From IMG/VR virus record IMGVR_UViG_3300021368_002653, positions 1 through 32,715 of that record: a stretch of 32,715 bases of DNA. One strand, written 5' to 3'. The notes under the pieces were generated by a model. That model saw only the letters and a list, made by a program, of their open reading frames with translations. It was not told the DNA's origin and did not search any database. Positions 23,116-27,787 of this stretch are shown piece by piece. Position 1 is the first letter of the stretch, and every line of letters begins with the position of its first letter. The stretch is from a virus. The translations under genes and the position numbers were made by a program.

Positions 23116-23147
23116 GATAGGGGGACTTCGGTCCCCTTATCTTATTA
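23116..23147 (+). terminator. Rho-independent terminator with UUCG tetraloop
   Basis: GATAGGGGGAC (23116-23126), loop TTCG (23127-23130), GTCCCCTTATC (23131-23141): 11 pairs with one G-T, followed by TTATT. It ends the gp32 transcript. It sits between convergent genes and could partly stop leftward transcripts too. It overlaps the stop codon of the minus-strand gene (23145-23147). Confidence 0.85.
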
Positions 23148-24899
23148 ATATGCAGGAGTGAGACCCAGCGAAGGATTCATGTTAAACTTGGCGTGTTGGT
23201 CTTCTACATTTAGGCCACTTGAAAACGAAAAGCTATTGTCATTCAAGACCATATTAGTATCACCGATTTGCCCGGTAACTAATGGCGGAGGTGCTAATGG
23301 TATTGAACCAGTGTTTGATGCAGGTGGTATCTTTGTCGTTGGCTTTGGTGCTGTAACAATAGGTCCTCTAGAACGAGGTATCATATCTGCAGTAATATTA
23401 TCTATGCTATTCAGAAGTTCAGGTGTCAGCTTCCCAGGGTCGACTACGGTGTAGATTTCATCTTTAATATTGTCCGGAGTAATATCTCTACCGCGGCTCG
23501 ACAAAGATGCGCTTGCTGCATTAATAATAGAAGACAAGTTTTGTCCGGATTCAATCGCTGTCCGTAAATCCATTGTCGCTTTCATATTATCATTGCCGGT
23601 ATCATATTGTCTTTGTTTTAAACTCTTATTGTATTTTTCTAGTAAAGCTTCCAACCGGTTGTCGCCTTCATACTGTGGAAGTTGGAGCGCTCTTCTAAGC
23701 TCTTGACTACCCATTGCAATTGCAGCAAAGTCTTCTTCAGTAGCTGTACCTTCTTTAACTTTTTTATCTGCAAGTTCTGCTGCTCCAATCGCGGTTTCCA
23801 TAACTTCATTATTTCTGGTTCTGAACCAATCCGCTAATGCGCCTAGTCCTGCAGAGGCCATAGCGAATAATCCTCCAGCCAATGCACCATACGGACCGGC
23901 TAACATCAATCCGATAGCGGCTGCGCTAAATGTATTTGCAACAAAATTACCAGCTTCTTCATCTGCAATATTTTCAACATAAGCACCTAAGGTAGCACCT
24001 AATCCAATCAATAAAGCTGGACCAACAAATCTTCCGAAGCCTGTGAAGAAGTATGATCTAACTGATTTCTTAGGTGTAAATCTACCTTTAGCATCTCTTC
24101 CAACTTTAGCACCTGGAAAGGCTAGTGCAGTTCCTCCAAACATCTTAGTCACAGCACCGTATAAAAGGCCAGGACCTACATACGCTCCTAATACTGATCC
24201 AATAGTAATTAATTGATCAGGAGTGATCGGAGTTTCTAGGCCAAAAAGTTTAATCTTGTCATCTAATGACATACCTTCTGGTAAAACTTGTGTAATTGCT
24301 TCTGCTAAGATAGAGCCTAAGAAGCCGGCAATGAATCCTTTCTTGCCGAAGAATGTTCCTAAGAACAAGCCAGTTTTCAATCCATCAACTGCTAATTCTG
24401 CTAGAGCGTTGATTGTTGCTGGACTTACTTCAGCGTTTGGAAATGCGTCTACAAACTGTGTAATAAGACTAGTAAATATGTCTTCGCCAAATGTTTCGAG
24501 TAACAAAATAGCAGGACCGAATATTAATCCTCTACCAATTATTTTTCCGATTCTCGTGGTTAATGCTTTGATAGTAGCACCACCAAATATTCCAGCTATA
24601 GCTGCTTGTAACATAGAACGGATGCCACCACCTATGCCTGAAAATAAATTTAATCCAGTCGCTTCTCTAATTCCCATTCCTAAGCCGGCTTTAAAACCTG
24701 CCGGCTCTATCGCTGCTTCATCTCTACGTTTTCTAGATTTTTCTTCTAGTCTATCTTCTAAAGCTTTTTTGCGTTCGGACTCAGCACGGCGCATGGCATT
24801 TGATCGAGCTCTTGCTTCTTGATCAAGTCGAGTTCTTACATCAACAAGAGTGTCATTTTGTTTCTGTAATTCTTCTACAACAGCTTGTAATGTTGCCAT
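23145..24899 (-). CDS. Tape-measure-like tail protein (gp29-like)
   Basis: The 584-residue protein (T4 gp29 is 590) has an N-terminal coiled coil rich in Arg/Glu (about 1-65). A long hydrophobic Gly/Ala/Leu/Phe region follows (about 70-390) with repeated GxxxG-like patches, the usual look of tape-measure proteins. These fix tail length and pass into the host membrane. The C-terminal third is soluble, ending in a disordered Pro/Thr stretch and QIGDTNMVLNDNS. It starts one base after the stop of the frameshift extension of gp26, the position of the tape-measure gene behind G/GT chaperones. It could also be an internal virion protein. Confidence 0.7.
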   Translation of the reverse strand: MATLQAVVEELQKQNDTLVDVRTRLDQEARARSNAMRRAESERKKALEDRLEEKSRKRRDEAAIEPAGFKAGLGMGIREATGLNLFSGIGGGIRSMLQAAIAGIFGGATIKALTTRIGKIIGRGLIFGPAILLLETFGEDIFTSLITQFVDAFPNAEVSPATINALAELAVDGLKTGLFLGTFFGKKGFIAGFLGSILAEAITQVLPEGMSLDDKIKLFGLETPITPDQLITIGSVLGAYVGPGLLYGAVTKMFGGTALAFPGAKVGRDAKGRFTPKKSVRSYFFTGFGRFVGPALLIGLGATLGAYVENIADEEAGNFVANTFSAAAIGLMLAGPYGALAGGLFAMASAGLGALADWFRTRNNEVMETAIGAAELADKKVKEGTATEEDFAAIAMGSQELRRALQLPQYEGDNRLEALLEKYNKSLKQRQYDTGNDNMKATMDLRTAIESGQNLSSIINAASASLSSRGRDITPDNIKDEIYTVVDPGKLTPELLNSIDNITADMIPRSRGPIVTAPKPTTKIPPASNTGSIPLAPPPLVTGQIGDTNMVLNDNSFSFSSGLNVEDQHAKFNMNPSLGLTPAY

Positions 24900-24900
24900 C

Positions 24901-25089
24901 TTATCCTCGTGCTTGTCTATCTCTTTCTTCTTGTTGTTCTTTTAAGTCTTCAACCAACAAGGTGATAAAGATTTCCCTTTCCCATGGTAGCATATCATTA
25001 ATATCACTGAGCGAATGATGAAAGTTTTGCATCAACTGATAATTAGTCTTATAATAATTCACTAAGCTGTCATGAGAAAGGGTGACTGA
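24901..25089 (-). CDS. -1 frame extension of gp26 (T-like chaperone part, gp51 position)
   Basis: The frame is open from the slippery site to TAA at 24903-24901 (62 codons), overlapping the last 28 bases of gp26. It reads SVTLSHDSLVNYYKTNYQLM..., then MLPWEREIFITLL and a charged helical tail. GTG 25062 and ATG 25032 exist but neither has a ribosome-binding site, so entry by frameshift is more likely. Similar short 'PWERxIY' proteins follow gp26 in marine T4-like phages as I recall; T4 has gene 51 at this position. The fused product would be 297 residues against 243 for gp26 alone. Confidence 0.72.
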   Translation of the reverse strand, partial: SVTLSHDSLVNYYKTNYQLMQNFHHSLSDINDMLPWEREIFITLLVEDLKEQQEERDRQARG

Positions 25090-25793
25090 AAAAAATCTGC
25101 CAATCCTTCTAAGGTGCGGACATTTAGTGTTTCACATTCTTCGCATTTAAAGCTAACATCATGAGATAGTTTTGGTAGATTATTTGCAAACTGCATAATC
25201 TCTTCGAACTGATTAGTTGTTAGCTGATTTAAAAATGATTCTACTTCCTCTTTTGTTTCATCTAAGAATGAAATTCTTTCTTCATCTGTGTTCAAGCTAC
25301 CTAAGCATGCTGTAAGCAATCCGTACAACTGGTTAACTTGACTTTTATCATTTAAATCTACCTCATTCAATAATTCTTGGTAGTTAGGATATTTAAGCAT
25401 TAAAGTATATTTGTCATTTAACTTAATGCTAGGTAGTTTTTCTGGCAAATCAATTTCAATATCCTGTAGGTTGACAGTTACTTTATTCGAATGTTCACAG
25501 TTACTACACGGAATTCCAATATCTGATGATTCGCCTGCAGACTTTGTTCTTAATTGAATAAAAATATACTCTACATCGAACGTTGACAACTCTCGAATAT
25601 CGATCGGATCCGTGATACAAGACTGAATTGTATTCATAATCGAATTTAGAATCTGCGCTTCATCACGAGATTCTAATGCAATCAATAGTACTTTTTGTTC
25701 TTTAACTAAAAACGGTCTGTATGAAACTTTCTTTTTGCTAGAGGGGATTACTAATTCATACTGTGGTATATCATTAAACTTAGGCAGAGCCAT
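25062..25793 (-). CDS. 26: gp26-like baseplate hub assembly protein
   Basis: The 243-residue protein opens with ALPKFNDIPQYELVIPSSKK and VSYRPFLVKEQKVLLIALES, a signature of the T4 baseplate-hub family (gp26, PF12322). Two CxxC knuckles, CSNC (Cys96/99) and CEEC (Cys217/220), may bind one zinc. It acts in hub/tail assembly and not necessarily in the final particle. Overlaps the previous gene by 14 bases. The slippery T_TTT_TTT is in codons 233-235, so it can be read as the G-like part of a frameshifted chaperone pair. Confidence 0.85.
   Translation of the reverse strand: MALPKFNDIPQYELVIPSSKKKVSYRPFLVKEQKVLLIALESRDEAQILNSIMNTIQSCITDPIDIRELSTFDVEYIFIQLRTKSAGESSDIGIPCSNCEHSNKVTVNLQDIEIDLPEKLPSIKLNDKYTLMLKYPNYQELLNEVDLNDKSQVNQLYGLLTACLGSLNTDEERISFLDETKEEVESFLNQLTTNQFEEIMQFANNLPKLSHDVSFKCEECETLNVRTLEGLADFFQSPFLMTA
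25089..25095 (-). other. Slippery heptamer T_TTT_TTT for -1 frameshifting
   Basis: On the minus strand, gp26 codons read GAT TTT TTT CAG, so the seven T's are in exact X_XXY_YYZ register. Slipping back one base enters the open -1 frame that continues to 24901. No strong downstream hairpin was seen by eye; the best is weak (GTCA/TGAC). Confidence 0.75.
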
Positions 25794-26049
25794 TGATGTT
25801 CACCTTCTTCCATACTTCATTTGCATTCACACGAATAAATTTCTTATTCGTTTCATTTGTGTTTGGATTAGGAATAGTCAGCATCACATTTTTGCCAGCC
25901 ATCCAAGCACGTAATTTTGCATGTGCTTGTTTATCGCTTCCTACCCATTCTCTCCTCTGCTGCTTAGCAATTTTATTACCGAGCCTATTAGGATTCTGGT
26001 GTGTAACTCCCTTTGATACCTGTTTGGATCTCGTTCTTTTCTTTCCCAT
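25780..26049 (-). CDS. Small basic protein of the tail/head block, unknown
   Basis: The 89-residue very basic protein (KKRTRSKQVSK, RREWVGSDKQAHAKLRAWMA) ends with a hydrophobic strand and VNANEVWKK. It starts with GGAAGTGAA before ATG. I recall small basic proteins at this place in marine T4-like tail clusters, without function. The basic N-terminus might contact DNA or acidic virion proteins. It overlaps gp26 by 14 bases. Confidence 0.6.
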   Translation of the reverse strand: MGKKRTRSKQVSKGVTHQNPNRLGNKIAKQQRREWVGSDKQAHAKLRAWMAGKNVMLTIPNPNTNETNKKFIRVNANEVWKKVNINGSA

Positions 26050-27226: not shown

Positions 27227-27787
27227 TCAAATTTCGCAAACTAGTACATCACTTCCTTGACTTCCCTTAAACTTTGTACGTATACGCAATCCGTTACTCG
27301 TAATCAAATCTTCCATTTCACTCGTAGTAGCATCAAGGCAATCAACAGGTTCACAGACACTCAGCCTTTCATTGTACTCGATGTAAAGAGTTCCATTCTC
27401 TGCCAGCTGATCTCTCCACGTTTGAATTGTTTTTACAGGATCAATTGAATGATCAAATGAATTTGAATATACTAGATCTGCTTTACTTATCCATTCTTCT
27501 TTTTGAACTGCAAAGTCATGCTGTATAGTCATTTCAAATTGAGAAGCGGTATCGCTAATTTCTGTTCCAATGACATCTGCATTTCGAAAATGTTCCTTAA
27601 ACATTTTTTGTTCGGCACCATTTCTTGTGCCATGACAAATGATAAAGTTAACTTTCTTTGCACCTCTGTCATCTGCAATCGATTTGATCGCATGCGGTCT
27701 TACAAACTTCCAGCCAATTTTCTGCTTGTTGGCTTTTGTTTGATTTTCTACATATTCATTGTAATCTTTGTATTCATAGATTTTCAT
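27227..27787 (-). CDS. SAM-dependent methyltransferase-like protein
   Basis: The 186-residue protein shows a class I fold: VNFIICHGTRNGAEQKMF (strand 1 and loop), ADVIGTEISDTA (strand 2 with Glu), IQHDFA (Asp near the SAM adenine), ADLVYSNSFDHSIDPVKTIQ (strand 4) and LAENGTLYIEYNE (strand 5). The first loop, CHGTRNGAE, is non-canonical but keeps glycines. It lies between gp4 and a gp2-like gene, overlapping gp4 by 4 bases, hence co-expressed with virion genes. Possible targets are a sugar, protein or nucleotide; unknown. Confidence 0.72.
   Translation of the reverse strand: MKIYEYKDYNEYVENQTKANKQKIGWKFVRPHAIKSIADDRGAKKVNFIICHGTRNGAEQKMFKEHFRNADVIGTEISDTASQFEMTIQHDFAVQKEEWISKADLVYSNSFDHSIDPVKTIQTWRDQLAENGTLYIEYNERLSVCEPVDCLDATTSEMEDLITSNGLRIRTKFKGSQGSDVLVCEI

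Follow-up and report, generated by a model that had tools for sequence, protein, structure and literature searches.

In phage lambda, a short tail assembly chaperone, gpG, is accompanied by gpGT, in which a -1 frameshift adds a C-terminal extension, and the partner of the pair is the tape-measure protein (PMC5009743). T4 was given there as the exception to the G-T frameshift (PMC5009743). In the TAC locus of Vandenendeviridae and Andersonviridae (phage Adele), a -1 slip at a poly-T stretch near the 3' end of TAC-N, with the motif given as GTTTTT, was inferred from conservation, and the passage of the same article that cites Vladimirov et al. 2022 describes poly-T -1 signals as known from the TAC-N genes of T4-like phages (PMC12846349). 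According to a passage of another article, again citing Vladimirov et al. 2022, some T4-like phages carry a short gene copy together with a long, fused one in place of frameshifting (PMC10885494).

The locus described here shares with lambda gpG/gpGT the combination of a short form and a -1 extended form, the latter predicted; it differs from it in that sequence similarity with gp26 is not established and that gp26 is larger and carries Cys pairs. It shares with the locus of phage Adele a predicted poly-T -1 slip near the TAC-N 3' end, although the motif is another one and Adele belongs to another phage group. Vladimirov, Gautam and Davidson (Virology 566:9, 2022) reportedly identified the tail assembly chaperone genes of T4-like phages. 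As far as the passages that cite this work go, these are apparently the same kind of genes as the gp26 and gp51 studied here, whereas our sequence comes from an uncultured marine lineage. Because T4-like chaperone genes and poly-T slip signals have already been published, to judge from the same passages, we are very probably dealing with a clear further example of chaperone frameshifting, which is well known in tailed phages and reported for T4-like phages, and not with a new kind of system. The breadth of the distribution, the invariance of the heptamer, and the layout of the stimulators may go beyond the published work.

Slip site and reading frames at the gp26 junction

We analysed a stretch of 32,715 nucleotides, the entire IMG/VR virus record IMGVR_UViG_3300021368_002653, hereafter the window. 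The relevant features, all on the minus strand, are the following (basis in brackets).

25062..25793, minus: gp26, predicted short form (TAC-N), T4_baseplate family, 243 aa (PF12322, phrog_150, AlphaFold2 model)
25104..25110, minus: AGAAGGA, a Shine-Dalgarno-like possible stimulator preceding the slip site (sequence; family-wide anti-SD peak)
25089..25095, minus: slippery heptamer T_TTT_TTT in the gp26 register (sequence; T_TTT_TTN conserved in 202/202 loci)
24901..25095, minus: gp51-like C-terminal extension of the proposed long form, FF + 62 codons + TAA in the -1 frame (phrog_634; purifying selection)
25062..25064, minus: gp26 stop TAG, proposed to be bypassed by the slip (sequence)
23145..24899, minus: putative tape-measure gene, 584 aa, one base past the extension stop (position; partial matches of the P-HM1 counterpart)

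The gp26 gene runs from ATG 25793 to TAG 25064-25062. Its codons 232-236 read GCA GAT TTT TTT CAG and contain, at 25095-25089 and in the zero-frame register, the X_XXY_YYZ sequence T_TTT_TTT; the zero-frame stop lies 8 codons after this site. After a -1 slip, the reading continues as SVTLSHDSLVNYYKTNY...RQARG for 62 codons past the heptamer and ends at TAA 24903-24901, one base before ATG 24899 of the next gene. Two potential start codons are present in the -1 frame (GTG 25062 and ATG 25032). Their best anti-SD pairing energies are +0.7 and -1.5 kcal/mol, compared with -5.7 at the gp26 ATG and -5.9 at the ATG of the next gene, and they thus have no Shine-Dalgarno sequence. The first-pass annotation of this DNA had already described the heptamer in register (codons 233-235, GAT TTT TTT), the -1 frame open across the gp26 stop up to the next ATG, and the lack of a ribosome-binding site at both start codons, and all three descriptions hold.

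Profile searches assign gp26 to PF12322 (T4_baseplate; E 1.5e-55, 188.7 bits for a curated cut-off of 24.5) and to phrog_150 (E 2.4e-60). The extension matches positions 58-116 of the 121 positions of phrog_634, the gp51 family annotated as "baseplate hub assembly catalyst" (E 5.5e-21), as well as the C-terminal region of phrog_150. Its dN/dS against the relatives with estimable dS is 0.05-0.19, indicating purifying selection. With tblastn, 755 phage records match gp26 at E 1e-5 or better, with cyanophages in the lead, and none of these matches reaches at least 60% identity. No sequence relative was found in the PDB (best E 0.18).

The E. coli dnaX -1 site has a Shine-Dalgarno-like element upstream of its slip heptamer. 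A comparable element is found in the gp26 family, where anti-SD pairing is strongest 8-16 nt ahead of the heptamer (-5.74 versus -4.68 kcal/mol in synonymous controls, z -4.8, family-wide); the window reads TAGAAGGA in this zone. Averaged over the family, 70-nt segments starting 5 nt after the heptamer show an excess of RNA structure (mean z -1.85 versus about -0.4 elsewhere), with clear hairpins in P-SSM2, P-HM1, and two further loci (L009 and L015). We searched the window for such a downstream stem-loop and found none (z +1.06), so only the upstream element can be claimed for this genome. Hence, the layout resembles that of dnaX in the upstream element and the slip heptamer and, in many gp26 relatives, also in the downstream stem-loop; it differs in that dnaX is a cellular gene with an A_AAA_AAG heptamer and in that the window lacks the stem-loop.

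Conservation of the junction and competing readings

We assembled 202 loci having both parts from IMG/VR and named phages (180 distinct loci, 70 clusters at <50% identity). A profile made from all 28 extensions was too diverse for scanning the collection, and two narrower alignments were used instead. One of the scan patterns, FF[SL][VI][TN]LSH, contains the slip residues and is therefore biased toward loci having them; the patterns of the other scan lie wholly downstream of these residues, and every locus they retrieved also has the heptamer. The loci of Vibrio phage D506 and L020 are outside the set, having no extension match. The gp51-like segment is in the -1 frame in all 202 loci, and in all of them the junction is T_TTT_TTN, with all four bases occurring as N. 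They include KVP40, phiM7, AF3, Moby, X1, PhiW-14, Desulfovibrio phage 7757, and the jumbo phage slurp01. The zero-frame stop comes 0 or 1 codon after the slip site in 178 of the 202. Since homology to gp51 starts at the slip site, and no ATG, GTG, or TTG occurs between the upstream stop of the -1 frame and this site in 174 of the 180 distinct loci, hardly any locus could initiate the whole conserved segment by itself. Start codons are also missing from -15 to +30 nt around the gp26 stop in 100/180 distinct loci. In the set of non-T4-type loci, frame analysis revealed no fusion of gp26 and gp51 in a single frame. The conserved -1 segment has no annotated CDS in the published genomes of four cyanophages: ACG-2014d, ACG-2014b, S-WAM1, and S-SSM4 (L030, L031, L033, and L036).

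We compared the codons at the slip site with the expectation computed from the codon usage of each gene itself. NNT TTT was expected in 84 of the 180 distinct loci and observed in every one; by cluster, it was expected in 29.6 of 70 and observed in 70 (log10P -32, a value that assumes independent clusters, which related sequences are not). GAT TTT is kept at this place even in GC-rich phages that prefer TTC and GAC. Elsewhere in gp26, Phe-Phe is encoded as T_TTT_TTY in 7 of 96 cases. Because NNT TTT is far above the expectation and Phe-Phe is rarely T_TTT_TTY at other positions, conservation of the residues Asp-Phe-Phe alone does not account for the heptamer. The first-pass annotation had suggested looking in marine T4-like genomes for a conserved heptamer and open -1 frame with synonymous-site constraint; the present loci have the heptamer and the frame, with the synonymous-codon excess given above. 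Its proposal of a -1 fusion between gp26 and the extension is thus supported by the conserved slip site, the frame, and the lack of initiation.

The alternative that survives best, improbable as we judge it, is termination-reinitiation: the gp51-like segment would be a gene of its own, started at a codon that overlaps the end of gp26, such as GTG 25062 in the window or the TAATG and TGATG of several relatives. Such an overlap exists in 32 of the 180 distinct loci, where gp51 could be translated separately; KVP40, PhiW-14, AF3, S-CRM01, and slurp01 have TAATG or TGATG, Vibrio phage D506 has TAATG in a gene without the heptamer, and annotators often call gp51 separately. However, the overlapping start is missing from the other 148 distinct loci, among near relatives the GTG is absent from L002, L003, and L006, and in the window this codon has no Shine-Dalgarno sequence. 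The homology starts upstream of this overlap, at the slip site, and reinitiation would explain neither the invariance of the heptamer nor the synonymous bias. In D506 (L045, around 2648-2690), the gp26-like gene has A_CTT_TTC in place of the heptamer and TAATG overlapping its stop; translational coupling may take the place of the slip in this lineage.

We give even less credence to transcriptional slippage at the T-run, which would generate mixed mRNAs, one of them reading into the extension. There is indeed a poly-T run of 6-8 at the junction, but it has just 6 T in 104 of 180 distinct loci, which is short for polymerase slippage. Furthermore, in 180/180 the first T of the run coincides with the X position of the heptamer; such a register is relevant to the ribosome and not to the polymerase, and the positioned Shine-Dalgarno-like element and the RNA structure also implicate the ribosome. 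Finally, one could attribute the frame break to an error of sequencing or to the decay of a fusion once in frame, and invoke for this the in-frame version (gp51) of T4-type phages. This reading is effectively refuted because 202 loci, from isolates as well as metagenomes, have the break at an identical codon, with an extension under purifying selection.

Relation to tail assembly chaperones and to T4 gp26 and gp51

The comparison with chaperones concerned the fold of HK97 gp13, YqbN, and Rbstp2171. The AlphaFold2 model of the window gp26 has a mean pLDDT of 84, with values <50 confined to the tail that follows the slip site. Foldseek ranks 2OB9, a tail assembly chaperone of HK97, first among its PDB matches (E 0.27, prob 0.87). 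In a second structural alignment, of residues 1-96, the best chains are 3FGX (Z 7.8), 2OB9 (Z 7.5), and 3KLU (Z 7.4), aligned over 85-86 residues, and the next chain has a Z of 4.5. These are the three chaperone structures grouped together in PMC9603447. Values below 8, as all three are, are not conclusive by themselves, and the isolation of exactly these structures carries weight; the matches are middling but favour a fold resembling that of known tail assembly chaperones. A model of the T4-like long form, made from 7 sequences only, gave no informative PDB match, and the three chains were not among its matches; its matches to viral structures were mostly gp26/gp51 relatives.

Profile comparisons link the window proteins to those of T4. 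T4 gp26 matches the gp26 family (99.7%) and T4 gp51 (98.7%). T4 gp51 in turn matches gp26 with its N part (98.4%) and the extension with its C part (97.1%, E 5.8e-11), the latter match starting at the slip residues. By profile, T4 gp51, which combines both matches, is thus the long form encoded in a single frame, and T4 gp26, which matches gp26, corresponds to the short one. The 3' end of T4 gp26, TTC TTT GAG, has no slip site. The two phages therefore have homologous proteins, but T4 makes its two forms from two divergently transcribed genes, 26 and 51, in place of a slip. The earlier suggestion that the extension occupies the position of T4 gene 51 was correct in that the extension is gp51 by profile; it needs amending in that T4 gene 51 is a whole long-form copy and not the extension alone. 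T4 gp51 is needed for assembly yet is not in the particle (PMC3004832), which fits a chaperone.

On these grounds, we consider it highly probable that gp26 and gp26-gp51 form a tail assembly chaperone pair of the lambda G/GT type, the former being the short form and the latter arising by the -1 slip. The first-pass annotation had put forward gp26 and the extension as the counterpart of the lambda proteins, and it finds support in the conservation of the slip, the chaperone-fold match, and the in-frame equivalent in T4 gp51. We infer the slip, its efficiency, and the binding partners as follows. Most ribosomes would read gp26 to its own stop and produce the short form (TAC-N), and a minority, probably helped by the upstream AGAAGGA, would slip by -1 at T_TTT_TTT and produce the long form (TAC-NC), composed of gp26 residues 1-235 and 62 gp51-like residues. 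Going by lambda G/GT, the N part would be the one to bind the product of the next gene, the presumed tape-measure protein, and tail tube or hub subunits would be recruited through the extension.

If this is true, what the annotations of many marine phage genomes list as a separate gp51, or omit, is the C-terminal portion of a frameshift product, and T4 gp26 and gp51, hub chaperones that are poorly understood, can be assigned a concrete function as short and long form of a tail assembly chaperone. The slip would be measurable on a short stretch of about 90 nt.

We lean towards a broader scenario, in which gp26-gp51 would be an ancestral -1 frameshift unit across the T4 superfamily (cyanophages, Pelagibacter, Vibrio, Rhizobium, and Stenotrophomonas phages, and jumbo Asteriusvirus phages) with a dnaX-like layout, i.e., a Shine-Dalgarno-like element, T_TTT_TTN, and frequently a stem-loop some 5 nt further downstream. 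In the T4-type enteric phages, the slip would have been lost and replaced by a duplication of the gene into gp26 (short) and gp51 (long). The order of events, slip first and duplication later, is suggested by the distribution. A T4-type gp51 on an IMG/VR contig (L218, about 2855-2870) shifts frame in the middle of the gene, away from the gp26/gp51 junction, which may be real or an error.

The downstream gene and neighbouring reading frames

The product of the gene at 23145-24899 had no family match of its own in profile searches. An ORF of >350 aa starts within -20 to +39 nt of the extension stop in 59 of the 63 loci that have a complete ORF of this size. The counterpart in P-HM1 has partial matches to tape-measure, peptidase, and endolysin families, a mixture that tape-measure proteins often show. 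By its position and the partial matches in P-HM1, the gene is likely, and putatively annotated as, a tape-measure gene. Of the first-pass claim that the tape measure follows gp26, the adjoining large ORF was found in the window and in most relatives; the label itself is drawn from position and from the partial matches in one relative.

Two further reading frames of the window lie on the minus strand. An ORF of 89 aa at 25780-26049 overlaps the gp26 start by 14 nt, has a fair Shine-Dalgarno sequence, and matches phrog_23239, a family whose function is unassigned (E 9.8e-7). An ORF of 186 aa is found at 27227-27787, between the head-closure (gp4-like) and DNA-end-protector genes.
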